This document shows positions 15,754-32,320 of a stretch of 64,000 bases of DNA, piece by piece. The number at the start of each line of letters is the position of its first letter. The stretch's first letter is position 1. A model generated the notes under the pieces. It saw only the letters and a list, made by a program, of their open reading frames with translations. It was not told where the DNA came from and made no database searches. The position numbers were made by a program, and so were the translations under genes. Source of the stretch: Sideroxydans lithotrophicus (GTDB lineage Bacteria; Pseudomonadota; Gammaproteobacteria; Burkholderiales; Gallionellaceae); the NCBI GenBank assembly GCA_020723185.1, contig DYJI01000005.1:1-64000 (forward strand), in the 5' to 3' direction.

Positions 15754-17682
15754 GTGCCTTCAATCCACCCATCTTTCTACATGTCGTACGACACTCCGGC
15801 GCAACGCAATACGACTCGTCTGCTGATCGGCTTGACCCTGTTGTTCCTGCTGGTCTGGCTGACTCCCTCTGTGGCGGTGCTGCGCGGTGTCCATATCATG
15901 CCGTTGCCGATGCACGTCGCCATGGAGACGTTCGCCATCGTGGTGGCGATGATGGTGTTCGGCATCACGTGGAACGCATATTCCCCCGAACGATCGGCGA
16001 ATACTGTGATCCTTGCCACCGGTTTCCTGCTGGTCGGGTTGCTCGACTTCGGGCACATGTTCTCGTTCGCCGGCATGCCGGAATTCGTCACGCCCAGCGG
16101 CCCCGAGAAAGCGATCCAATTCTGGTTGTCCGAGCGGTTCGCCGCTGCCGTGATCCTGCTGGTGGTCGCGATTCGCGCCTGGCAGCAGCCGCTGGCGCAT
16201 GAAAGGACACGCTATCTGCTGCTGGCCGGCAGTCTGCTGGGAGCCGGAGTGGTCTATTGGCTGGTGTTGTATCACCCTGATGTCTGGCCGCGCACCTTCA
16301 TAGAGGGGCAGGGACTGACCGGGTTCAAGATAGCAGCCGAATATTCCGTGATCGCCTTGCTGCTGGCGGCGGGTGCGATGTTCTACCGCCAGACCCGGCA
16401 GAATGACCGTGCCCAGGCGGACAACGCCTACCGGCTCGGTGCGGCATGCCTGGTCAGCGCGCTGGGCGAGCTGTGTTTCGTTTTGTACAGCGCGGTCAGC
16501 GATATCTTCAACCTGCTCGGCCACGCGTACAAAGTCATCGGCTACCTGTTCATCTACCGTGCGGTGTTCATCGAGAGCGTGCGGGAGCCCTATGTGCGCC
16601 TGGGTACGACGCAGGATGAGCTCGGGCGTTCGCAGAGGATGCTGCAGTCAATCCTGGACAACGTGCCGGTCAGGATATTCTGGAAGGACGAGGCGGGGCG
16701 CTATCTGGGTGTCAACAAGCGCCTGCTGGAAGATTTGGGAATGCAGGATGCACCGCAGATGATCGGCAAGACCGACTTCGACTTCCTGCCCGAGGAGCAG
16801 GCAGCCAGCTTCCACGCGGATGATATCGAGGTGATGCTCAATGGGCGCCCGAAACTGAATATCGAGGAACCGATGCGGCTGAAGGACGGCAGCGACGCCT
16901 GGCTGCTCACCAATAAGGTGCCGTTGCTGGGGCAGTCCGGCGAAGTGATCGGTGTGTTGGGTGCCTACAGCGACGTCACGCAATTGCGCAGTGCCGAACT
17001 TCGCCTGCAGGAAGCGAACAGACAGTTGCGCGAGCTGACCGTGCGGCGCGAGCAGGCGCGTGAGGAAGAACGCAAGCGCATCGCGCAGGACCTGCACGAC
17101 GACCTCGGCCAGATGCTGACCGGCCTGCGTATGGAGGTCGGTCTGCTGCGCATCCAGTACGGCGAGGAAAGGCCAGAATTGCTGCTGCCGCTGCAGGCGC
17201 TGAAGGAACAGATCGACGCCAGCATACAGGTGGTGCGCGATGTAGCAGCCCAGTTGCGCCCGGCCGTGCTGGATATGGGTGTGGCCTCCGCCCTGGAGTG
17301 GCAGGTCGCCGAATTCACCAGGCGCAGCGGCATCCCGTGCGGGCTGGTGCTCGACGAGCGGGATATCGGGCTGAGTGCCGAGCAGGCCACCACAATCTTC
17401 CGTATCGTGCAGGAATCGTTGACCAACATCATGCGCCACGCCCATGCCGGACAGGTCATGGTCAGGCTGCAGCACCGGGAAGATCATTGCCTGCTGCAGA
17501 TCGAGGACGACGGGGCGGGCTTCGATGCCGGACAGGCGCGCAAGAAGACGTTCGGCCTGATGGGGATGCGCGAGCGCGCGCTGGTGCTGGGTGGCGAGAT
17601 CGAGATCGACAGCGCCCCCGGCAAGGGAACGCGGATCTCGGTGCAGATCCGTTCATGCAAATGCGGGAGGAACCATGATTAG
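15754..17682 (+). CDS. MASE3-like membrane sensor / PAS / HisKA_3 histidine kinase (NarX-type)
   Basis: Multi-TM N-terminus, PAS domain, ERKRIAQDLHDDLGQMLTGLRMEVGLL phosphoacceptor, C-terminal HATPase. Start may be 15781. Confidence 0.9.
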   Translation: MPSIHPSFYMSYDTPAQRNTTRLLIGLTLLFLLVWLTPSVAVLRGVHIMPLPMHVAMETFAIVVAMMVFGITWNAYSPERSANTVILATGFLLVGLLDFGHMFSFAGMPEFVTPSGPEKAIQFWLSERFAAAVILLVVAIRAWQQPLAHERTRYLLLAGSLLGAGVVYWLVLYHPDVWPRTFIEGQGLTGFKIAAEYSVIALLLAAGAMFYRQTRQNDRAQADNAYRLGAACLVSALGELCFVLYSAVSDIFNLLGHAYKVIGYLFIYRAVFIESVREPYVRLGTTQDELGRSQRMLQSILDNVPVRIFWKDEAGRYLGVNKRLLEDLGMQDAPQMIGKTDFDFLPEEQAASFHADDIEVMLNGRPKLNIEEPMRLKDGSDAWLLTNKVPLLGQSGEVIGVLGAYSDVTQLRSAELRLQEANRQLRELTVRREQAREEERKRIAQDLHDDLGQMLTGLRMEVGLLRIQYGEERPELLLPLQALKEQIDASIQVVRDVAAQLRPAVLDMGVASALEWQVAEFTRRSGIPCGLVLDERDIGLSAEQATTIFRIVQESLTNIMRHAHAGQVMVRLQHREDHCLLQIEDDGAGFDAGQARKKTFGLMGMRERALVLGGEIEIDSAPGKGTRISVQIRSCKCGRNHD

Positions 17683-18304
17683 ACTGATGATTGCCGACGA
17701 CCACGCCATCGTGCGCGAAGGCCTGAAACAATTGTTCGCGCTGGTGGCCGACATCAAGGTGGTCGCCGCGGCGGTGAACGGTGCGGAGGTGCTCGACCTG
17801 TTGCGGAATAAGCCGGCCGACCTGCTGTTGCTGGACATGACCATGCCAGGCATCAGCGGGGTCGAGCTGATCGCGCGCGTCAAGGCGCAGAACCCGGAGC
17901 AAAAGATACTCGTGCTCAGTATGCACAACGAACCGCAGATCGCGCGGCGCGCACTGGCGGCGGGGGCCTCCGGCTACCTGACCAAGGACAGCGATCCGGA
18001 GGTGCTGCTGGCGGCCGTGCGCAAGGTGGCCGCCGGTGGCCGCCATATCGACGCCGGCCTGGTCGAGGCCATGGTGTTCGATGCCGGCGCCACCACCAAC
18101 AAGGCACCGCACGAACTGCTATCCGAGCGGGAGCTGCAGATCCTGCGCCTGCTGGTGCAGGGCAGGAGCGTCAACGATATCGCCGATGCGCTGGTCATCA
18201 GCAACAAGACCGTCAGCACCCACAAATCCAGATTGATGCAGAAACTGAACCTGGCCAACAACGCGGAGCTGGTCCGCTATGGTGTCGAGCACGCACTGAC
18301 CTGA
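17675..18304 (+). CDS. NarL/LuxR-type response regulator
   Basis: Receiver (MIRLMIADDHAIVREGLKQ...LLLLDMTMPG) plus LuxR HTH (LSERELQILRLLVQGRSVNDIADALVISNKTVSTHKSRLMQKL). Confidence 0.97.
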   Translation: MIRLMIADDHAIVREGLKQLFALVADIKVVAAAVNGAEVLDLLRNKPADLLLLDMTMPGISGVELIARVKAQNPEQKILVLSMHNEPQIARRALAAGASGYLTKDSDPEVLLAAVRKVAAGGRHIDAGLVEAMVFDAGATTNKAPHELLSERELQILRLLVQGRSVNDIADALVISNKTVSTHKSRLMQKLNLANNAELVRYGVEHALT

Positions 18305-18371
18305 TCCTCCCCGGGTCAGGAAATCCCGACCCCGACGCGTCACATCCCTACAGCAGATTCGGTCTTGCCTG

Positions 18372-19589
18372 ATGGATGCCGCCCTGAGGTGGCGGCATCC
18401 TGCGGTCACTGCTATCTACGATCGTACTGACATGCCGGCGGATGTTTCTCTCCTGGTCGCTTTGCTGCTCGGCATCGCGCTCTCATTGCTGTTCACCTAT
18501 CTCCTGCGTCACCCGGCTATCCGGGATGACACGGTCGCCACCCCTCGTTGCGACGGGTGCGCCCCCGTCGATTTCAAGGCGATGATCGAACGATCGCCAG
18601 ACACCATTTCCCGATACGACCGTGACGGCAGCCTGTGCTATGCCAATGCCGCTTTTCGCCGACTCGAACCGGACACGGGCGAGGGCGGCGAACGGTACGG
18701 CGGGGAGAATTTTCTACCGAGGCTGCGGGAGGTGATGGAAAGCCGGCGGGAGGATGAATATGAATGTACGTGGAAAACGCGGGCCGGGTGGCAGACCAGC
18801 CTCATCCGCATCGCTCCGGAGTTCGATGCCGATGGCGATGTCAGGGGGGCGATCAGTATCGGGCGCGATATAAGCGCGCTCAAGGAGACCGAGAACCGTC
18901 TGCGCGAGTCGCGTGAGCTGCTGCGGGAATTGAGTGTCAGGCGCGAGGTAGAGATGCGGCGGGTGCGCAAGGAAGCAGCACGCGAGATGCACGAGGATTA
19001 CGGTCAACGCCTGAGCATGCTGCGCATGAACCTCGTTCTGTTGCAGCACCAGTCGGTGAGGGATGATCCCGACGGGGTGGCACGGATAGGGGACTCGCTG
19101 CATCTGCTGGACGAGACCATCGCGCACATGCGCGAGATCGTTTCCGTCATCCATCCCTCGGTGCTGAACATGGCTGTCGCCCTGGCGCTCGAATGGCTGG
19201 CCGAGGAGATGCTGAGCGGATCCGGTATCCGCTACGAGGTCATGGTGACCGATGCTGCGGACGGGCTGGACGAGATGGTCACGGGCCTGGTGTACCGCCT
19301 GGTCCAGCATGCACTGTCGAATGTGGTCAGGCATGCGCAGGCGCAACGGGTGCGCATCGTGCTGGAGGGCAGGGGGGAGTGTCTGAGACTGGTGGTGAAC
19401 GATGACGGCAAGGGATTCGACCTGAACCGTGAGCGCAGGGATTCCTTGGGCCTGGTTGCCATGGAAGAGATCGCGAACATGCTGCACGGCGAGATCGTGT
19501 TCCTGAGTACGCCGCACCTGGGGACGGAGATCGAGGTCTGTTTCCCGCCGCAGGGGACTTCCGCACATCGTCCGGCTGCGACCGTGTAG
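18372..19589 (+). CDS. PAS / HisKA_3-like histidine kinase
   Basis: One TM, PAS (MIERSPDTISRYDRDGSLCYAN), REMHEDYGQRLSMLRMNLVLL, and HATPase boxes (LSNVVRHAQ, NDDGKGFD). Start may be 18432. Confidence 0.85.
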   Translation: MDAALRWRHPAVTAIYDRTDMPADVSLLVALLLGIALSLLFTYLLRHPAIRDDTVATPRCDGCAPVDFKAMIERSPDTISRYDRDGSLCYANAAFRRLEPDTGEGGERYGGENFLPRLREVMESRREDEYECTWKTRAGWQTSLIRIAPEFDADGDVRGAISIGRDISALKETENRLRESRELLRELSVRREVEMRRVRKEAAREMHEDYGQRLSMLRMNLVLLQHQSVRDDPDGVARIGDSLHLLDETIAHMREIVSVIHPSVLNMAVALALEWLAEEMLSGSGIRYEVMVTDAADGLDEMVTGLVYRLVQHALSNVVRHAQAQRVRIVLEGRGECLRLVVNDDGKGFDLNRERRDSLGLVAMEEIANMLHGEIVFLSTPHLGTEIEVCFPPQGTSAHRPAATV

Positions 19590-19742: not shown

Positions 19743-20951
19743 ATGAATAGAGAGACTGAATCGCTGGTCGGAGGGAGAGGCAACGCTGTCTGGCTGCCGC
19801 ACGCGATGCTGGGGGCAGCCGCCATCCTTGCCGTGTTCGCGTCTTCCGGGATCACCGGACAGGCAGCCATGTCTGCGGGGGTACTCCTGCTGGTTGCGCT
19901 GGCGACGGGCGCGATGAGCGTGCGTGGTCAGAACGCTTCCCGGCTCGCGACGGTGGCTGCGCTGCGTCGGCAAATGGATGAGGAGCTGGTGCAGGAGCGC
20001 CTGAAATATGTGGCCGGTCTGGATGAGGTCTGCGGTGAAGTGCTGCCGGTGTGGTCCGGGCAGATCGAGATGGCGCGTGCCCAGACCGAAGGTGCCATCA
20101 CCGATCTGTCCATGCGCTTCGCCAGTCTTTCGCAACGCCTGTCGGCAGCGGTGGATGCTTCCGGCGGGGAAGGTGGCGGGCAGGCCGGTCTGGTGACGTT
20201 GCTCAAGGACAGCCAGACAGAACTCAATTCCATCATCACCTCGCTGCGCGACGCGCTCGAAGTCAAGCGCGCCATGCTGGGCGAGGTGCAGGCGCTGGCG
20301 CGGTTCACCGGAGACCTGCAGAAGATGGCGCAGGACGTGGCCGACATCGCGGGCCAGACCAACCTGCTGGCCTTGAATGCCGCCATCGAGGCGGCGCGTG
20401 CCGGCGAGGTCGGGCGCGGTTTCGCGGTGGTCGCGGACGAGGTGCGCAAGCTGTCCAATCTGTCCGGTGAGACCGGCAAGAAGATGAGCGCCACCGTGGA
20501 CACCGTGAACAAAGCCATCGCATCCACGTTGCGCGTGTCCGAGCAGTATGCCCAGCAGGATGCCGAGATGGTGCAGAACTCGGAACAGACCATAGCGCAG
20601 GTGCTCAGACAGTTCGGTGATGCCACCTCTGCATTGTCCGACTCGACCGAGACGCTGCGCCACGAGAGTCAGGCCATCGGCGGGGAGATCGCCAACGTGC
20701 TGGTCGACCTGCAGTTCCAGGACCGTGTCAGTCAGATGCTGATGCATGTGCGCAACGACATGGACAAGCTGGACAGTCATCTGCGCGAGGGCGGGCAGGC
20801 GCGCGCTGCCGGCAATATCGGCGCACCGATGGATGCGCGCGCCTGGCTGAGCGAACTGGCGCAGACCTACACCATGCCCGAACAGCATGCCGCCCACGGC
20901 GGCGGCACCCCGGCGACAGCGGGCAACGATTCCGACATCACTTTTTTCTAG
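19743..20951 (+). CDS. methyl-accepting chemotaxis protein (short, two N-terminal TMs)
   Basis: [38 protein letters not shown] hairpin tip. Confidence 0.95.
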
Positions 20952-20962
20952 GAGGTTAGCAA

Positions 20963-21331
20963 ATGGCAAAGACGATATTGGTAGTGGACGATTCCGCATC
21001 CCTGCGGCAGGTGGTGAGCATCGCGCTGAAGGGGGCCGGGTATGACGTGATCGAAGCGTGTGACGGCAAGGACGCGCTGACCAAACTCACCGGGCAGAAG
21101 ATCCACCTCATCATCAGCGACGTGAACATGCCCAACATGGATGGCATCACCTTCGTCAAGGAAGCCAAGCAGAAGGCGGAATACAAGTTCACGCCGGTGA
21201 TCATGCTCACCACCGAAGCGGGCGAAGACAAGAAGCAGGCCGGTCAGGCCGCCGGTGCCAAGGCATGGGTGGTCAAGCCGTTCCAGCCGGCACAGATGCT
21301 GACCGCCGTCTCCAAGCTGGTATTGCCCTGA
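20963..21331 (+). CDS. cheY: CheY-like single-domain response regulator
   Basis: KTILVVDDSASLRQVVSIALKGAGYDVIEA...LIISDVNMPNMDG...AWVVKPFQP. Confidence 0.95.
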   Translation: MAKTILVVDDSASLRQVVSIALKGAGYDVIEACDGKDALTKLTGQKIHLIISDVNMPNMDGITFVKEAKQKAEYKFTPVIMLTTEAGEDKKQAGQAAGAKAWVVKPFQPAQMLTAVSKLVLP

Positions 21332-21360
21332 TACGAACGCAACAGTCACCGGAGCCCGAT

Positions 21361-21687
21361 ATGGCACAACAGGAAACATCAAAGATCGCGACCGCGCAGT
21401 TCGCCATAGAGGGCGAGATGACGATCTATCGCGCCGCCGAGTTGAAGCAGGTCATCCTGCCGCACATCGATCACGCCAATGTGATCGAGATCGACCTGTC
21501 CAAGGTGAGCGAGATCGACTCGTCCGGCCTGCAACTGCTGATCGCGGCCAAGCTGGAAGCCTCGATCCGCGACAAGCAGTTGCACTTCGTCGGCCACAGC
21601 AAGCCGGTGCTGGAGCTGCTGGACCTGTGCGACCTGGGAGGCTTCTTCGGTGACCAGGTCGTCATCTTTCCGCATGGCACGCATTAA
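21361..21687 (+). CDS. STAS-domain protein
   Basis: NVIEIDLSKVSEIDSSGLQLLIAAKLEA is the STAS signature; sits between cheY and cheA. Confidence 0.9.
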   Translation: MAQQETSKIATAQFAIEGEMTIYRAAELKQVILPHIDHANVIEIDLSKVSEIDSSGLQLLIAAKLEASIRDKQLHFVGHSKPVLELLDLCDLGGFFGDQVVIFPHGTH

Positions 21688-21696
21688 GGAACGGAC

Positions 21697-23862
21697 ATGG
21701 ACCTCGACGACGCACTCAAGACTTACATCATAGAAAGCCGCGAACTGCTGGAGCAGATGGAAGACGCGCTGCTGCGCATCGAGCAGGCACAGGACGACCC
21801 GGAGATCATCAACGCGATCTTCCGCGCGGCGCACACCATCAAGGGTTCGGCCGGCCTGTTCGGACTGGAATATATCGTCGCCTTCACCCATGTGGCGGAG
21901 AGCGTGCTGGACAAGGTGCGCAGCAACGAACTGCGCATCGATCCGGAACTGGTGGCGCTGCTGCTGGAATCGCGCGACCACATCGGTACGCTGGTCGAGC
22001 ACGCGGCACAGGGGGACGAACCCGATGCGGACAGCGATCGACAGGGAGCCGGGCTGATCGCCAGGCTGAACACCTACCTGGGCAACCCGACAGGGGAGAC
22101 CACCGCCCAGGGCGGCATGCCGGTCGAACATGCACCGCAGATCGAGCGTGAGGAGACGCACAGCGTGGCCACCGACAACTGGCATATCTCGTTGCGTTTC
22201 GGCAATGACACGCTGCGCAACGGCATGGATCCGCTGTCCTTCGTGCGCTACCTGAACACCTTCGGCCGCATCATCCAGATCGTCACCGTGGTAGAGGCGG
22301 TACCGCCGTTGTCGCAACTGGATGCCGAATCGTGCCATCTCGGCTTTGAGATCAGTTTCCAGACCGAGGCCGACAAGGCGACCATCGAGGGCGCGTTCGA
22401 ATTCGTGCGCGACGACTGTCTGGTCTACATCATGCCGCCGCACAGCAAGGTCGCCGAATATCTGGATCTGATTCGCGACCTGCCGGAAGAAGAGATGAAA
22501 CTGGGCGAGATGCTGGTCAAGTGCGGCACGCTGACGCGCGACGAGCTGGCAAAGGCGCTGCAGAAGCAGGTCGAGGAGCAGCGTCCCATCGGCGAGGTGC
22601 TGCTGGAGGACAAGATCGTGCGTCCGGAAGTGGTGGCCGCCGCGCTGGACAGGCAGAAGCAGGTAAAAGACAGCAAGTCGACCGAGAGCAGCCTCATCCG
22701 TGTCGATGCCGAGAAGCTGGACCAGCTGATCAACCTGATAGGCGAGCTGACCATCGCCAGCGCCGGCACCGCACTGGTGGCGCAGCGCGCCGGCATCTCC
22801 GAATTGCAGGAGGCGGCCTCCACCCTGTCGCGGCTGGTCGAAGAGGTGCGCGATTCGGCGCTGACCCTGCGCATGGTGCAGATCGGCGCCACCTTCAACC
22901 GCTTCCAGCGCGTGGTGCGCGACGTGAGCAAGGAGCTGGGCAAAGACATCGAGCTGGTCATCAGCGGTGCCGAGACCGAACTGGACAAGACCGTGGTGGA
23001 GAAGATCGGTGATCCGCTCACCCATCTGGTGAGGAATTCCATGGACCACGGCATCGAATCCGCCGAGGTGCGCATCGCCAACGGCAAGCCGGCCAGGGGC
23101 ACGCTGCGTCTGAACGCCTACCACGATTCGGGCAGCATCGTGATCGAGGTCGGCGACGACGGGGGCGGCCTGAAGAAGGACAAGATCCTGCAAAAGGCCA
23201 TCGAGCGCGGCCTGGTCGCGCCGGATGCGAACCTGTCCGACAAGGAGATCTTCAATCTGATCTTCGAAGCCGGCTTCTCCACCGCAGATACGGTGAGCAA
23301 CCTGTCCGGGCGCGGCGTCGGCATGGATGTGGTGCGCCGCAACATCAATGCCTTGCGCGGCAGTATCGACATCGAGAGCGTGCAGGGGCAGGGCACCACC
23401 ATGCGCATCCGCCTGCCGCTGACGCTGGCCATCATCGACGGTTTCCTGGTCGGCGTCGGTTCTTCGTCTTTTGTGATCCCGCTGGACATGGTGGTGGAGT
23501 GCATCGAATTGTCGGACGAGGACAGGCGCGCCGGAGAGGAGCGCAACTATCTGTCGCTACGCGGCCAGGTGCTGCCATACATGCGTCTGCGTGACACGTT
23601 CGATATCCGCGGCGACACGGTACGGCGCGAGAACGTGGTGGTGGTGCAGTACGGCAATGCGCGTGCGGGACTGGTGGTGGATGCGTTGCAGGGTGAGTTC
23701 CAGACGGTGATCAAGCCGATGGGTCGTATCTTCAGCCACGTCAATGGCATCGGCGGCTCAACCATTCTCGGCAGCGGCGAAGTGGCACTGATCCTCGATG
23801 TGCCGCGTCTGGTGCAGTTGGTGTCGACGCAGGCCGAAAAGAGCGGACTGGAACTGGCTTGA
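21697..23862 (+). CDS. cheA: chemotaxis histidine kinase CheA
   Basis: Hpt (AAHTIKGSAGLFGL), P3-P5 (HLVRNSMDHGIE, GVGMDVVRRNINALRGSIDIES), CheW-like C-terminus; contains an extra MshEN-like segment. Confidence 0.97.
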   Translation: MDLDDALKTYIIESRELLEQMEDALLRIEQAQDDPEIINAIFRAAHTIKGSAGLFGLEYIVAFTHVAESVLDKVRSNELRIDPELVALLLESRDHIGTLVEHAAQGDEPDADSDRQGAGLIARLNTYLGNPTGETTAQGGMPVEHAPQIEREETHSVATDNWHISLRFGNDTLRNGMDPLSFVRYLNTFGRIIQIVTVVEAVPPLSQLDAESCHLGFEISFQTEADKATIEGAFEFVRDDCLVYIMPPHSKVAEYLDLIRDLPEEEMKLGEMLVKCGTLTRDELAKALQKQVEEQRPIGEVLLEDKIVRPEVVAAALDRQKQVKDSKSTESSLIRVDAEKLDQLINLIGELTIASAGTALVAQRAGISELQEAASTLSRLVEEVRDSALTLRMVQIGATFNRFQRVVRDVSKELGKDIELVISGAETELDKTVVEKIGDPLTHLVRNSMDHGIESAEVRIANGKPARGTLRLNAYHDSGSIVIEVGDDGGGLKKDKILQKAIERGLVAPDANLSDKEIFNLIFEAGFSTADTVSNLSGRGVGMDVVRRNINALRGSIDIESVQGQGTTMRIRLPLTLAIIDGFLVGVGSSSFVIPLDMVVECIELSDEDRRAGEERNYLSLRGQVLPYMRLRDTFDIRGDTVRRENVVVVQYGNARAGLVVDALQGEFQTVIKPMGRIFSHVNGIGGSTILGSGEVALILDVPRLVQLVSTQAEKSGLELA

Positions 23863-23902
23863 AGCCTACAGAACGGAATTGAAGAAACTTCAGGAGAAGA
23901 AG

Positions 23903-24436
23903 ATGGGTGCATTGGTAAAGACAGACGGTCTGGTCGCACAGGTGCAGGCGGCCGAGATCCAGCAGTATCTGACGTTCACACTGGGCAGCGAGATGTTCGC
24001 GGTGGGTACGCTGAGCGTGAAGGAGATCATCGAATACGGTCAGCTGACCGAGGTGCCGATGATGCCGGACTTCATCCGCGGCGTGATCAACCTGCGCGGG
24101 GCGGTGGTGCCGGTGATCGACTTGTCGGCGCGCTTCGGCCGCAACGCCACCGAGATCACGCGCCGCACCTGCATCGTCATCATCGAGGTGCCGAGCGGCG
24201 AGGAGAAACAGGACATCGGTGTGGTGGTGGATGCGGTGAGCGAAGTGCTGGAGATCCCGGCCAGCGAGATCGAACCGGCACCGGCCTTCGGCGCCAAGAT
24301 CCGCACCGATTTCATCCACGGCATGGGCAAGGTCAACGGCAAGTTCGTGATCCTGCTCGACGTGGGCAAGGTGCTGTCGGTGGAGGAGATCTCCACGCTG
24401 GCCTCGGTGTCGGGGCAGGGCGCTTCGGCGCAATGA
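23903..24436 (+). CDS. cheW: CheW coupling protein
   Basis: [55 protein letters not shown]. Confidence 0.97.
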
Positions 24437-24479
24437 GTTTCCGGGTTTGCAGAATCCTAATTATCGAGAGAGGTGTGAA

Positions 24480-26108
24480 ATGTTCAAGGATATGAAGATA
24501 GGGGTGCGGTTGGGTCTGGGCTTCGGCCTGGTACTGGTGCTGCTGGCGGTGATCTCGGCGGTGTCGTTCATGCGTGTCGGCCAGATCAGCGGACAGATCG
24601 ACGACCTGGTGAACGACAAGTTCCCCAAGACGGTGATCGCCAACGACATCATCGACGATGTCAACACCATCGCGCGTGCGTTGCGCAACTCGCTGCTGGT
24701 CAACAGTGCCAGCGATAGACAGAAGGAACTGGATCGTGTCGAAAAGGCGCGGGTGGAGATCGTCGAGGGTTTCGACAAGCTGGAGAAGGTGATCCGCTCC
24801 GAAGAGGGCAAGAAGGCGCTGGCCAGGGCGCTGGATGCGCGCAAGGTGTTCGTGGCGGACCAGAACAAGTTCCTGGCGCTGCAGAAGGATGGCAAGCGTG
24901 ATGAGGCGATCGAATACATGGTGAACACGATGCGCAAGACGCAGGGTGAATATATCGCCGCCGTGGCCGAGCTCATCACCAACCAGTCCGTGCTGATGAC
25001 CAAGACCGGCGAAGAGGCCAACCAGGTCGCGGCACAGACCAAGACGCTGATCCTGACGCTGGGCATCGCTGCCATCGTCATCGCCGTGCTGTTCGCGGCC
25101 TGGGTGACGCGCAGCATCACCCGCCCGCTGAACGAGGCGGTCGGTGTGGCCAATAGTCTGGCAGGGGGTGATTTGACGGTACGCATCAAGGTCGAGTCGA
25201 AGGACGAGACCGGCCAACTGCTGGCTGCGATGCAGGAGATGACCGGCAAGCTGTCGCAGGTGATCGGCGAGGTACGCGGCTCGGCGGACGCGTTGTCCAG
25301 CGCCTCGGAAGAAGTGAGCGCGACGGCGCAGAGCATGTCGCAGGCTTCGAGCGAACAGGCTGCCAGCGTGGAAGAGACCTCGGCCTCGGTGGAGCAGATG
25401 AGTGCCTCCATCAACCAGAATGCGGAGAACGCAAAGATCACCAACGGCATGGCGGACAACGCTTCCACGCAGGCGAACGAGGGCGGCAAGGCAGTGAAGG
25501 ACACGGTGGCCGCGATGAAGAGTATCGCCGACAAGATCGGCATCATCGACGACATCGCCTACCAGACCAACCTGCTGGCGCTGAACGCGGCCATCGAAGC
25601 GGCCCGCGCCGGCGAGCACGGCAAGGGCTTCGCAGTGGTGGCGGCCGAGGTGCGCAAGCTGGCAGAGCGCAGCCAGGTAGCAGCGCAGGAGATCGGCGAA
25701 GTGGCCAAGGGCAGCGTAGACCTGGCGGAGAAGGCGGGCAAGCTGCTGGACGAGATCGTGCCGGCCATCACCAAGACCAGCGATCTGGTGCAGGAGATCG
25801 CCGCCGCTTCGGAGGAACAATCCTCCGGCGTGGGCCAGATCAACACCGCGATGAGTCAGCTCAACCAGATCACGCAGCAGAACGCGTCCTCTTCCGAGGA
25901 GCTGGCAGCGACCGCCGAAGAGATGAGCGGCCAGGCGGAGAACCTGCAGCAGCTGGTGGGCTTCTTCCGCGTGGACGGCGCGGCCTCGGCTCCGGCGGCA
26001 CGCGGCACCGGGAAACCCGCCACCGCGCCTGTCGCCAAAGCGAAGCCGGCCCAGCACAAACCGCTGGCCACGGCACAGGTGGATGAGAGCAATTTCCAGC
26101 GTTTTTAA
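24480..26108 (+). CDS. methyl-accepting chemotaxis protein (4HB_MCP-like sensor, HAMP)
   Basis: [37 protein letters not shown]...[41 protein letters not shown]. Confidence 0.96.
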
Positions 26109-26236: not shown

Positions 26237-28147
26237 ATGGATGCTTTGTTGGCACCGGGCATGGCCCTGATGGGACGCCTGAGTTACGCGCGCAAATTCG
26301 GACTGATCAGCCTGATCTTCATGCTGCCGATCGCGTTGCTCACCTATTTCTTCATCAACGAGGTCAACACAGGCATCAGTTTCGCAGAAAAGGAGCGGCA
26401 CGGCGTCGCTTATCTGGTGCCGCTGAAGGAGGTGCTGTCCGACATGCAGCAGCACCGTGGCATGGCGGCCGCCCTGCTGAACGGCGATAGTTCGTTCGCC
26501 GGCAAGCTGGAGGCGAAGCAGAAGCACCTGCAGGAACAGGCGGCGCGTCTGGATGCAGTGGATGTGCGGCATGGCGAGGAACTGGGCGTCTCCGCGCAAT
26601 GGCAGTCCATCAAGGCCGAGTGGGACGGGTTGCGCGGCAGAATCGGCGGCCTCACCCCCAAGCAGAGTTTCGAAGAGCATACTGCGATCATCGCCAGAGT
26701 GACCGCGCTGATGGTGGCGGTGGCGGACGGTTCCAACCTCACGCTGGATCCGGACCTGGACAGCTTTTACCTGATGGATGCCCTCGTCACCCGTCTGCCG
26801 ACGATGAGCGAGACGCTGGGCCAGGCACGCGCGGTGGGTTCCGGCGCGGCGGCTAAAGGCGGCGAGCCGGCGGTGGAGGTGCGCATCCGTCTGTCGGTGA
26901 TGGCGAATGGCGTTTCAGAATTGCTGTCGGCGGTCGAGCATTCGATTCACACCGCAGGCGGGGCTAGCCCGGAACTTGGCAGTCGTCTCGCGTCCGATCT
27001 GGAACAGGTGAGCACGGTGACCAAGTCTTTCCTGCAGACCATGGAGCAGCAACTGATCAAGGTTGATCGCGTCAGCATCGAGCCCAAAACCTATTTCGCC
27101 GAGTCGACCGCAGTGATCGACCAGGCCTTCAAGCTGTATGACAGACTGGCACCGGAGCTGGACGGGCTGCTGCAGGCACGCATCGACGGTTATGTATGGC
27201 GGCGCACGCTGGTGTTGGGTTTCCTCGGGGTGGTGCTGCTGCTGGCGTTCTACCTGTATGCCGGCTTCTACGGCTCGGTCACGCGCACCGTGTCCAGCCT
27301 GAACGGTGCCACCCGCGCCATGGCGGAAGGCTATCTGGACCAGCGCGCCGATGCCTCCGGCCGGGATGAGCTGTCCGAGGCGGCGCGCAACTTCAATTCG
27401 ATGACCGACAAGCTGGCACAGCTGATCGGCGAGGTACGCGGCTCGGCGGACGCGTTGTCCAGTGCCTCGGAAGAAGTGAGTGCGACGGCGCAGAGCATGT
27501 CGCAGGCTTCGAGCGAGCAGGCCGCTTCGGTGGAAGAGACCTCCGCCTCGGTGGAGCAGATGAGTGCCTCCATCAACCAGAACGCGGACAATGCCAAGGT
27601 CACCAACGGAATGGCCGAGTCGGCCTCGCGCCAGGCCAATCAGGGCGGTCAGGCGGTGCAGGAGACGGTGAACGCGATGAAGACCATCGCCGGCAAGATC
27701 GGCATCATCGACGATATCGCCTACCAGACCAACCTGCTGGCACTGAACGCGGCCATCGAAGCGGCGCGCGCCGGCGAGCAGGGCAAGGGCTTCGCGGTGG
27801 TGGCGGCCGAAGTGCGCAAGCTGGCCGAGCGTTCGCAGGTGGCGGCACAGGAGATCGGTGAACTCGCCTCCGGCAGCGTGAGCAAGGCGGAGCAGGCGGG
27901 CAAACTGTTGCAGGAGATGGTGCCCAGCATCAACAAGACTTCGGATCTGGTGCAGGAGATCGCCGCCGCCAGCAACGAGCAGAGCGCGGGCGCGGCGCAG
28001 ATCAATACCGCGATGAGCCAGCTCAACCAGATCACACAGCAGAACGCCTCCTCTTCGGAAGAGCTGGCGGCGACCGCTGAGGAGATGAGCGGCCAGGCGG
28101 AGAACCTGCAACAGCTGGTGGCTTTCTTCAAGCTCGGGAATGCGTGA
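26237..28147 (+). CDS. methyl-accepting chemotaxis protein with a large periplasmic domain
   Basis: Two TMs around a ~300 aa helical sensor domain ([13 protein letters not shown]...); HAMP; MCP signalling tip. Confidence 0.95.
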
Positions 28148-28150
28148 CCC

Positions 28151-28780
28151 ATGGATACAACGATAGACAGCGTCTGCTGCCTCCCGGTTGGTTCACCCGA
28201 CAGGATAGAACTGGATGCGGTAGTCGGTATCAATGAAGATATCAAGGAAGTCATGCGCATCGCCAACGGACTCAATCTGGCAGCGATCAACGCGATGCTG
28301 ATCGCCAAGAAGATCGGTGATGCCAGCAGCGGATTCAGTGTGGTTTCCGCCGAACTGCGCACTTTCAGCAGGCGCCTGAGCGAGGTGATGTCCCGACTGA
28401 TGGAGCTTGTGTCGGCGCTGGTGCGCGAGGTGGCGGGCATGATACGACTCGACAAGGCATTGTCGCTGCAGCAGGCGACACGCGCAGCCGCGACGCACTA
28501 TCCGCATTGGGAGGCGATGTGGCGGCGCAAGTCCGGGGAACTCGCCCGAAGCGGGGCGGCCGTCCTCGATTGTCGCGCCAATCTGACTTCCGCGCTGGCA
28601 CGCGCGGACAAGCTCTGTGTCATGGGGCAATCCCTTTCCTATTCGGCCAAGATCGAGTCGGTCTACGGCGGCGCTCAGGCGGGGGCATTGAAACATGTGT
28701 CGGAGGGGGTCGAGGCTTCCGTGCGCGAGATCCTGTCCACCCTGCAGAAACTGGCCGGTCAACTGGAAACGAAAAGATGA
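28151..28780 (+). CDS. soluble degenerate MCP-hairpin-like protein
   Basis: No TM; NEDIKEVMRIANGLNLAAINAMLIAKKIGDASSGFSVVSAELRTFSRRL aligns with the MCP tip [42 protein letters not shown]. Confidence 0.75.
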   Translation: MDTTIDSVCCLPVGSPDRIELDAVVGINEDIKEVMRIANGLNLAAINAMLIAKKIGDASSGFSVVSAELRTFSRRLSEVMSRLMELVSALVREVAGMIRLDKALSLQQATRAAATHYPHWEAMWRRKSGELARSGAAVLDCRANLTSALARADKLCVMGQSLSYSAKIESVYGGAQAGALKHVSEGVEASVREILSTLQKLAGQLETKR

Positions 28781-29520
28781 AAAAGACCACGACGATCTAT
28801 GAACAGGGCAGCCATCGCTGGCTGGCGGTGGCGCGCGATCCGGCCAAAAAGGATTTCCTGATCGATACCAATGAATATCTGGTGTTGAACGGCGAGCACG
28901 CGTTGCTCACCGACCCGGGCGGGATGGAGATCTTCCCGGCGGTGTTCTCTGCCATCAGTACCGAATTCGATCCGCGCAAGATCCAGTGGCTGTTCGCCTC
29001 TCACCAGGATCCGGACATCATCTCTTCTCTGTCGCTGTGGCTGGACTTCAATCCGGAGATACGCTGCTACCTGAGCTGGCTGTGGGGTTCCTTCGTGCCG
29101 CATTTCGGCGGCAACGATGAGACCTTCATCAGCATCCCGGACGAGGGGATGGAAATCCTGCTCGGCAATCTTCGACTGCAGGCCGTGCCGGCGCACTATC
29201 TGCATTCGTCCGGAAATTTCCAGTTGTACGACTGCAAGGCCAACATCCTGTTCAGTGGGGATGTGGGCGCAGCCCTGTTGCCTCCGGAGATGGACGGACT
29301 GTTCGTGCGGGACTTCGATCGCCATATCAAACATGCAGAGGGATTCCACCGGCGCTGGATGGGTTCTGCCGAAGCCAAGCTGGACTGGTGCGAGCGCGCC
29401 AGCCGGATGCGGATCGACCTGCTGTGTCCGCAACACGGTGCGATCTATCAGGGCAAGGATGTGCAGCGTTTCATCGACTGGTTCGCAGAGCTGCCGGTGG
29501 GCAGCGGTGTCGGTAGCTAG
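28777..29520 (+). CDS. stand-alone MBL-fold diiron protein, ODP/FprA-like (oxygen-binding diiron protein)
   Basis: FASHQDPDIISSL...VPAHYLHSSGNFQLYDCKANILFSGDVGAALLPP...CPQHGAIYQG metal-ligand pattern of flavodiiron beta-lactamase domains; no flavodoxin domain; overlaps the upstream stop (ATGA). Confidence 0.8.
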   Translation: MKKTTTIYEQGSHRWLAVARDPAKKDFLIDTNEYLVLNGEHALLTDPGGMEIFPAVFSAISTEFDPRKIQWLFASHQDPDIISSLSLWLDFNPEIRCYLSWLWGSFVPHFGGNDETFISIPDEGMEILLGNLRLQAVPAHYLHSSGNFQLYDCKANILFSGDVGAALLPPEMDGLFVRDFDRHIKHAEGFHRRWMGSAEAKLDWCERASRMRIDLLCPQHGAIYQGKDVQRFIDWFAELPVGSGVGS

Positions 29521-29534
29521 TGACGGGCGGTGGT

Positions 29535-29858
29535 ATGGAGATACGGGCTTACTGGCGCGCCGTCATCAGGCTGGGCAACGGCGGGGCCGTGCTGCAGGCG
29601 CGGACACAGCATGTGGGCAGGCACAAGGCGGTGCTCAGTGTCGGGCGCAATCTGCCGGCAGGTGGCCAGTGCGAACTGGCGTTGATGCCGCCCAGGGCGG
29701 AGCCGGAGGGTGAATCCCTGCAGGTGCGCGGGCGCGCCGAGATCGTGACCAGTGTGCTGGCTTCCGAACAATTCAAGATCACCGTGCGCTGGCTGGACAT
29801 GGATGAGAACAGCAAGCGGTTGCTGGAAGAGAAGCTCCAGGCTGCGAGCGGAAAGTGA
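29535..29858 (+). CDS. small PilZ-like protein
   Basis: MEIRAYWRAVIRLGNGG...GRHKAVLSVGRNLPAGGQCELALMPPR...VRGRAEIVTSVLASEQFKITVRWLDMD; beta-barrel-like pattern but canonical D/NxSxxG not obvious. GTG start at 29520 also possible. Confidence 0.5.
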   Translation: MEIRAYWRAVIRLGNGGAVLQARTQHVGRHKAVLSVGRNLPAGGQCELALMPPRAEPEGESLQVRGRAEIVTSVLASEQFKITVRWLDMDENSKRLLEEKLQAASGK

Positions 29859-29869
29859 GAACAGGCGAC

Positions 29870-30691
29870 ATGCATCCCCCAGTGTTGAGCGACAAAGAAT
29901 TCCGCCAGTTCCAGGAAATGATCTACGACATCGCGGGCATCAGCCTGTCGGATGCCAAGAAGCCGCTGGTGAGCGGGCGGCTGGCCAAGCGTGTGAGGGA
30001 ACACGGCGTCACCAGCTACGGGGAGTATTTCAGCATCCTGATGCTCAAGGATCAGCGCGCCGAACTGCAGGTCGCCATCGACCTGCTGACCACCAACGAG
30101 ACCTATTTCTTCCGCGAACCCAAGCATTTCGACCTTTTGCGCCAGCAGGCACCGTTGCTGCAGCGTGCCGGCAAGCCGTTCCGCGTGTGGAGCGCGGCAA
30201 GTTCTTCCGGAGAGGAAGCGTACACCATCGCCATGGTGCTGGCCGACGTGCTGGGCGACAGTGCGTGGGAGGTGGTCGGCTCCGATATCAGCACGCGCGT
30301 GCTGGAGACGGCGCGCAAGGGGCATTACCCGATGAAGCGCATCGAGGGGATACCGAAGCACTATCTGAGCAAGTTCTGCCTGAAAGGGGTGGGGCCGCAG
30401 GACGGCACCTTTTTGATCGACCGCAGCTTGCGCAGCCGCGTGTCTTTCCAGCAGGCCAACCTGAACGAGAGCCTGCCGAAGCTGGGCGAGTTCGATGTGA
30501 TCTTCCTGCGCAACGTGATGATCTATTTCGACATGGAGACCAAGCGCCAGGTGGTGGCGCGCATGCTGCCGCTGTTGCGACCGGGCGGATATTTCATCGT
30601 CAGCCATTCCGAGAGCCTGAACGGCATATCGGATGCGCTCAAGGTCGTCACCCCTTCCGTCTATCGCAAACCCGATGCACGCGAAACCTGA
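29870..30691 (+). CDS. cheR: chemotaxis protein methyltransferase CheR
   Basis: LTTNETYFFREPKHFDLL...RVWSAASSSGEEAYTIAMVL...VIFLRNVMIYFD. Confidence 0.97.
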   Translation: MHPPVLSDKEFRQFQEMIYDIAGISLSDAKKPLVSGRLAKRVREHGVTSYGEYFSILMLKDQRAELQVAIDLLTTNETYFFREPKHFDLLRQQAPLLQRAGKPFRVWSAASSSGEEAYTIAMVLADVLGDSAWEVVGSDISTRVLETARKGHYPMKRIEGIPKHYLSKFCLKGVGPQDGTFLIDRSLRSRVSFQQANLNESLPKLGEFDVIFLRNVMIYFDMETKRQVVARMLPLLRPGGYFIVSHSESLNGISDALKVVTPSVYRKPDARET

Positions 30692-31247
30692 GCATGTCAT
30701 CGAGATCTTCCTGCAGCCGGGTGATTTCTACTTCGGCGACAAGGACACGCGCATCCGTACCGTACTCGGTTCCTGTGTCTCCATCATCGCCTGGCATCCG
30801 CAGAAATTGATCGGCGGCATGTGCCATTACATGCTGCCCACGCGCGGCAAGAAATACGACGGCGAGCCGGATGGGAAGTATGCCGACGAGGCGATGGAGC
30901 TGTTCATGCGGGAGTTGCAGGCAACCGGGACCAAGCCCTCCGAGTATCAGGTGAAACTGTTCGGTGCCGGCAATATGTTCCCGCATGCCGGTCATCACGG
31001 CTGCACGCGCTGCACGCCGGAAGTCGCCTATTCCAAGCCTGACGGGGCATGCCCCAGAGTGCATTGCCGCAACCGTCAGGTCGCCTATCACTTGGTCCAG
31101 CAACACGGTTTCGCGATCCATGCCGAGCATCTGGGCGGACAAGGTCACCGCCAGTTGCTGTTCGATGTCTGGAGCGGCTACGCCTGGATGAAGCATGTAC
31201 CGGCCTCGGCACCGCTGTTCCCGATCAAGGAGATAACAAGAAGATGA
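30675..31247 (+). CDS. cheD: chemoreceptor glutamine deamidase CheD (Cys-rich variant)
   Basis: [29 protein letters not shown] retains the T/C/H catalytic pattern; insertion [30 protein letters not shown]. Confidence 0.93.
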
Positions 31248-32320
31248 GCAAGATACGCGTGTTGATCGTGGATGATTCCGCTGTGGTGCGGCAGGTGCTG
31301 ACCGCCAAGCTGTCGGCCGATCCGGCAATCGAGGTCATCGGTGCGGCATCGGATCCGGTGTTCGCGCTGGACAGGATGAACAAGGACTGGCCGGATGTGC
31401 TGGTGCTGGACGTCGAGATGCCGCGCATGGACGGCATCACCTTTCTGAAGAAGATCATGGCCGAGCATCCGACGCCGGTGGTGATCTGCTCCACGCTGAC
31501 CGAGAAAGGGGCAGAGACCACGATGCAGGCGCTGTCGGCCGGGGCGGTGAGCATCGTGACCAAGCCCAAGGTCGGGCTCAAGCATTTTCTTGAAGACAGC
31601 TCGGACAATCTGGTGGCCACCGTCAAGGCTGCGGCGCGCGCCAATCTGCGCCAGCCCAGCGTGAACAGTTGCCCGTTGCCGGTCGCCCCCAAGCTGACAG
31701 CGGATGTCGTCTTGTCCGCCGGCGCGGGCCATGCGATGGCGCAGACCACCGAGGCGGTGGTGGCCATCGGTACCTCCACCGGCGGAACGCAGGCGCTGGA
31801 AGCCGTGCTCACCAAGCTGCCGCGCGTGAGTCCCGGCATCGTCATCGTGCAGCACATGCCGGAGAAGTTCACCGAGGCGTTCGCCAACCGTTTGAACAGC
31901 ATCTGCCAGATCGAGGTGCGCGAGGCGAAGAGCGGCGACCGCGTGGTGCCGGGACTGGCGCTGATCGCGCCCGGCGGCAAGCACATGCTGCTCAAGCGCA
32001 GCGGCGCGCAATACCACGTGGACGTGGTGGACGGGCCGCTGGTGAACCGCCACCGGCCTTCGGTCGACGTGCTGTTCCGCTCCGCCGCCAAATGCGCCGG
32101 TGCCAATGCGCTGGGCGTCATCATGACCGGCATGGGCGACGACGGCGCGCGCGGCCTGAAAGAGATGCGCGAGGCGGGTGCCAGGACCATCGCGCAGGAC
32201 GAGGCCACCTGCGTGGTGTATGGCATGCCCAAGGAGGCGGTCAAGCTGGATGCGGCGGACCGCATCATGCCTTTGGGGGAGATCCCCCATGCCATAATGG
32301 CCGTGGCATCGGGCAGATAG
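31244..32320 (+). CDS. cheB: protein-glutamate methylesterase CheB
   Basis: Receiver ([16 protein letters not shown]) plus CheB esterase domain ([49 protein letters not shown]). Confidence 0.98.

Follow-up and report, generated by a model that had tools for sequence, protein, structure and literature searches.

The window analysed here, 64,000 nucleotides of Sideroxydans lithotrophicus DNA (contig DYJI01000005.1, positions 1 to 64,000), carries a chemosensory operon whose genes follow the order MCP-cheY-STAS-cheA-cheW-MCP-MCP-(MCP-like)-ODP-cheR-cheD-cheB. Immediately upstream of this block, at positions 15754-19589, lie genes for a MASE3-PAS histidine kinase, a LuxR-type response regulator and a second PAS histidine kinase (18372-19589). 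The features of the operon and of its CheA are as follows.

19743-20951, + strand: chemoreceptor (MCP), opening the conserved block
20963-21331, + strand: CheY-like receiver
21265-21687, + strand: STAS-domain protein, immediately before cheA; translation probably starts further downstream than the ORF does
21697-23862, + strand: cheA, 721 aa, P1-P2-MshEN_N-P3-P4-P5
21712-21969, + strand: P1 (Hpt) of CheA, residues 6-91
22180-22434, + strand: P2 of CheA, about residues 162-246, ferredoxin-like fold predicted
22498-22569, + strand: MshEN_N-like module of CheA, motif I, residues 268-291, KLGEMLVKCGTLTRDELAKALQKQ
22570-22584, + strand: module spacer between the motifs, VEEQR, 5 residues
22585-22656, + strand: MshEN_N-like module of CheA, motif II, residues 297-320, PIGEVLLEDKIVRPEVVAAALDRQ
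22657-22698, + strand: connector linking helix 4 of the module to P3, residues 321-334
22687-22863, + strand: P3 dimerisation domain, residues 331-389
23011-23424, + strand: P4 ATPase/kinase domain, residues 439-576
23440-23817, + strand: P5 CheW-like domain, residues 582-707
23798-24436, + strand: CheW; translation here, too, probably starts further downstream than the ORF does
24447-26108, + strand: chemoreceptor, 4HB_MCP-HAMP-MCPsignal
26237-28147, + strand: chemoreceptor, HAMP-MCPsignal
29855-30691, + strand: CheR
30633-31247, + strand: CheD
31049-32320, + strand: CheB

The Pfam models Hpt, H-kinase_dim, HATPase_c and CheW (P1, P3, P4 and P5) all match CheA above their cut-offs. The P2 match falls below its cut-off (17.4 versus 23 bits), and in the AlphaFold model this region adopts a ferredoxin-like fold. 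The distance between P2 and P3 markers is 99 residues here versus 51 in E. coli CheA, which thus has no room for the module described below. An earlier note on this DNA had claimed a 24-5-24 residue motif between P2 and P3. Translation of positions 22498-22656 (+ strand; residues 268-320) returns exactly the two 24-residue units and the 5-residue spacer listed above, and the Pfam domain boundaries place them where the note had put them.

The same note had likened this segment to MshEN, and profile comparisons made in both directions agree with it. The NCBIfam model NF053729 (MshE-related c-di-GMP motif), which describes the general domain and is not CheA-specific, matches CheA at 47.2 bits (cut-off 38, E 1.4e-12), and the alignment covers the full profile, with all 53 positions matched (1-53/53); this match is far beyond chance. 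In the other direction, a profile of the CheA modules finds PilF (1.2e-22), PilB (6e-11) and MshE (5HTL, 8e-7) in the PDB, all of them c-di-GMP-binding ATPases. Conservation of the insertion in orthologues holds as well, NF053729 matching 51 of 51 sampled modules with E <= 0.01. Two other candidates for the segment were rejected: DUF4388, a Pfam match below cut-off over about 30 residues of motif I only, and the fumarase C-terminus, a weak Pfam match that is likewise under its cut-off.

A whole-genome profile search finds the NF053729 cut-off passed at three places only, this CheA and two others, the latter in ATPase-sized frames of 577-586 residues with Pfam MshEN (PF05157) directly after. 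Because the PF05157 match in this genome starts where the NF053729 match stops, PF05157 corresponds to the C-terminal subdomain of MshEN; and since PF05157 finds no match in CheA, only the N-terminal, ligand-binding half of MshEN (MshEN_N) is present there. The C-terminal alpha/beta subdomain (MshEN_C) is absent, and P3 begins about 14 residues after the module.

AlphaFold predicts four helices for the module (residues 269-276, 281-294, 298-304 and 310-331), following the ferredoxin-like P2. In a fragment model helix 4 continues towards P3 with confidence dropping, and in the model of full-length CheA (pTM 0.46) it is broken at residues 332-337. A Foldseek search with the P2-plus-module model gave no MshEN among the 50 matches listed; these were weak, ferredoxin-like and dominated by P2, and so constitute no test of the module. 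The spacer between the motifs ranges from 5 to 23 residues in relatives and is mostly longer than 5, and 14 residues separate Q320 from R335 in 83 of 101 relatives. We infer that a fixed connector to P3 combined with a free loop between the motifs fits a module that transmits conformational changes to P3.

In MshE, as Wang et al. 2016 describe (PMC5013675), the guanines of c-di-GMP are held by the backbone NH of Gly at position 3 of the motifs. Two three-Leu clusters and the position-24 Gln of either motif, which reaches the ribose and phosphate, add further contacts, and Arg at position 1 stacks on guanine. We counted the equivalent residues in 97 non-redundant module-bearing CheAs, a set biased towards retaining the module since these relatives were retrieved through it. 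The position-3 glycines, G270 and G299 in CheA (Gly11 and Gly40 of MshE), are present in 97/97 and 96/97 relatives, and the position-24 glutamines, Q291 and Q320 (Gln32 and Gln61), in 97/97 each. The cluster Leu10/54/58 of MshE corresponds to L269/V313/L317 and the cluster Leu39/25/29 to I298/L284/L288; these six positions are hydrophobic in 95-97 of the 97. All ten key contacts are kept together in 93 of the 97. The contact positions have a mean entropy of 0.68 bits; the remaining module positions average 1.85 bits (Mann-Whitney p 0.0005), and a set of twelve core or turn positions that make no contact averages 1.37 bits (p 0.02). The c-di-GMP contact residues are the most conserved residues of the CheA module. 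A second set, 16 relatives from the same clade retrieved with full-length CheA and aligned over P1-P5 (L014-L029), lacks the module only in L028 and L029; the other 14 conserve the two Gly and the two Gln throughout.

The earlier note had also remarked on departures from the MshEN consensus. Its statement that the second unit lacks the Gly is correct for the turn Gly at position 10 (G277 in motif I, Lys306 in motif II), which is not a ligand contact in MshEN motifs and which is Gly in motif II of 38 of 101 relatives, but not for the ligand-contacting Gly at position 3, which motif II keeps in its PIG triplet. Its suggestion that Lys and Pro at the first positions may alter binding is weakened by Thermus thermophilus PilF, where both residues occur in c-di-GMP-binding domains (PMC11731258). 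GSPII-B, whose motif I starts KLGE as in the CheA module, needs no Arg to bind c-di-GMP at a KD of 6 nM; GSPII-C, whose motif II starts PLGE, close to the PIGE of CheA, has an affinity about that of MshEN. The extended consensus allows Arg, Lys or Leu at position 1 (PMC11731258), which includes the Lys of motif I and leaves the Pro of motif II outside, though it is found in the binding GSPII-C. In MshE, mutating Arg9, Asp12 or Gln32 costs at most about fivefold, and G11L and G40I abolish ligand stabilisation. By this analogy, Lys268 and Pro297 probably do not spoil the c-di-GMP pocket. Of the module's deviations, only Lys306, which replaces the turn Gly, has no proven binding counterpart.

Comparison with other members of the family extends this picture. 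The Vibrio cholerae MshE domain (5HTL; PMC5013675) shares with the CheA module the two 24-residue motifs and the Gly/Leu/Gln contacts, and has the four-helix N-terminal half that is predicted for CheA; it differs in belonging to an ATPase rather than a histidine kinase, in having MshEN_C, and in having two stacking Arg for the Lys and Pro of CheA and a turn Gly in motif II. GSPII-B and GSPII-C likewise sit in a pilus ATPase, each with a C-terminal subdomain that the CheA module lacks (PMC11731258). MshEN_N alone (MshE residues 1-62) binds at 0.35 uM, no less tightly than the full domain (PMC5013675); in MshE the half that is present in CheA is thus enough for binding. In the non-binding XpsE, Gly11, Leu29, Gly40, Leu58 and Gln61 are changed, among others (PMC5013675), and all five of these positions are kept in the CheA module. 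A caution comes from GSPII-A of PilF, which keeps the fold and does not bind c-di-GMP, even when mutated to the full consensus in its native context (PMC11731258); as it is the context that makes this restored domain fail, motif conservation does not prove binding.

The retained contact residues, together with published binding by domains that carry the same Lys and Pro substitutions, argue for a c-di-GMP input to CheA. By analogy with these domains the module is likely to bind c-di-GMP, and if it does, an effect on CheA kinase activity would be very likely. That the module is an MshEN_N domain which provides CheA with a c-di-GMP input is, on balance, the reading we favour.

The module marks a CheA clade that is distinct from E. 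coli CheA. Scanning named genomes yielded 80 loci, of which 70 or more have a related CheA, in hosts including Sideroxydans, Methylobacter, Massilia, Rheinheimera, Shewanella, Vibrio and Nitrospirota MAGs, among others. In a survey of 370 genomes across the class, 38 places in 29 genomes scored at least 60 bits, in frames of 692-882 residues, before the next match fell to 51 bits; all 29 loci fetched from this survey were CheA. Within the genus the distribution is patchy, a full-length CheA match being found in 8 of 34 genomes, several of which are incomplete. In a P3-P5 tree, 40 of 41 sampled module-bearing CheAs fall on one side of a branch with 100/100 support, and E. coli CheA and module-less CheAs fall on the other. 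Three CheAs without the module, L028, L029 and L117, are nested among the module-bearing ones and are best read as cases of loss; in L117 the P2-P3 stretch is much shorter (54 residues versus 99). Apart from these, an MshEN_N module is clearly present between the P2 and P3 domains of L151, a CheA from the E. coli-type clade; this is apparently a separate gain.

A module-bearing CheA is usually encoded in an MCP-CheY-STAS-CheA operon, and the STAS gene adjoins cheA in 64 of 67 module-bearing loci. Sinorhizobium CheA is bound by a STAS protein, CheS, with an effect on CheY binding (PMC12654446), which makes the STAS protein a plausible partner of CheA here; it may possibly be a CheS-like partner or an anti-sigma antagonist output. 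The same observations suit the main alternative explanation, in which the module is an MshEN_N scaffold for docking or spacing, for example of the STAS protein, and has lost nucleotide binding in vivo. GSPII-A is a precedent for such a retained fold without binding, and other CheAs carry P2-P3 insertions: that of Vibrio, the LID, binds ParP (PMC7534058), and Agrobacterium fabrum CheA has 98 extra residues there (PMC12654446). Docking leaves unexplained why the ligand Gln and Gly are retained almost without exception while other surface varies, and we consider it unlikely, though to be taken seriously. Should binding nevertheless fail, the near-invariant contact residues would call for another explanation. 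A localisation role like that of the LID, which occupies the same place in Vibrio CheA, is very improbable, as the LID is described as a ParP-binding domain and not as MshEN, is reported only in ParC/ParP species (PMC7534058), and the CheA module matches MshEN in sequence with its conserved residues at the ligand contacts.

The preferred reading, a c-di-GMP input, suggests the following mechanism. Residues 268-320 would form a four-helix bundle of two 24-residue motifs with one c-di-GMP bound, placed between P2, where CheY docks, and P3, through which CheA dimerises, with helix 4 tied to P3 by the near-fixed connector. Binding of c-di-GMP from the cell-wide pool may order the bundle and the beginning of its first helix, and the ordered module would then shift the placement of P1 and P2 against the P3-P4 kinase core. 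Autophosphorylation or the transfer of phosphate to CheY could be tuned in this way, the STAS protein acting as a partner, and CheA would thereby integrate receptor signals with the level of c-di-GMP.

The 2.6 Mb of the genome contain 50 GGDEF and 24 EAL matches, a dense c-di-GMP network. GGDEF proteins are encoded in 35 of 35 surveyed module-bearing genomes, but since the domain is common in the class, this co-occurrence says little for a c-di-GMP input. Binding of another cyclic dinucleotide such as 3',3'-cGAMP instead, a preference that the first-position substitutions could bring about and for which weak cGAMP binding by MshEN is a precedent, is the least probable alternative, given that MshEN favours c-di-GMP by a large factor (PMC5013675) and GGDEF enzymes are plentiful in this genome.

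The earlier note knew of no such domain described inside CheA. A description does exist: Wang et al. 2016 list CheA among MshEN-associated proteins, naming the pairing in one sentence, and the main text does not give its place in CheA, clade, operon or pocket conservation (PMC5013675). Our literature search, which covered few subscription papers, found no experimental study of c-di-GMP binding by CheA. The MshEN-CheA pairing is thus known, and what is new is the conservation of the pocket, the clade, the operon and the link to the PilF variants. To our knowledge, the connections described so far between c-di-GMP and chemotaxis go by way of receptors, CheR or the motor. We regard as evenly balanced the broader proposal that the CheAs of this deep clade, spread over beta- and gammaproteobacteria and a few other phyla, serve as c-di-GMP receptors in their own right, with signalling gated inside the kinase. 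If this were true, the second messenger would act in the kinase itself rather than by those three routes, and through the c-di-GMP pocket of CheA the core of the array would read the biofilm/motility messenger directly.

As to the class of the chemosensory system, our guess is F8. Ancestral F7, considered for its STAS and cheD genes and its Vibrio and Shewanella members, was rejected on gene order and on the P3-P5 tree: stage 1 of F7 reads STAS-cheY-cheA-cheW-cheW-aer2-cheR-cheD-cheB (PMC7184735), whereas the order here is MCP-cheY-STAS-cheA-cheW-MCP-MCP-cheR-cheD-cheB and the CheA falls outside the E. coli-type clade. Nor is this the Flm pathway of Comamonas, a Tfp-class system described as c-di-GMP-independent.

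Positions 28151-29520, inside the operon, encode a short protein with an MCP signalling domain (209 aa, Pfam below cut-off) followed by an ODP-family protein with a diiron metallo-beta-lactamase fold. ODP proteins of chemotaxis clusters are described as iron/oxygen sensors, and one sensing iron or oxygen would suit a relative of iron oxidisers. An ODP homologue occurs in only three of the related loci (L046, L049 and L057).
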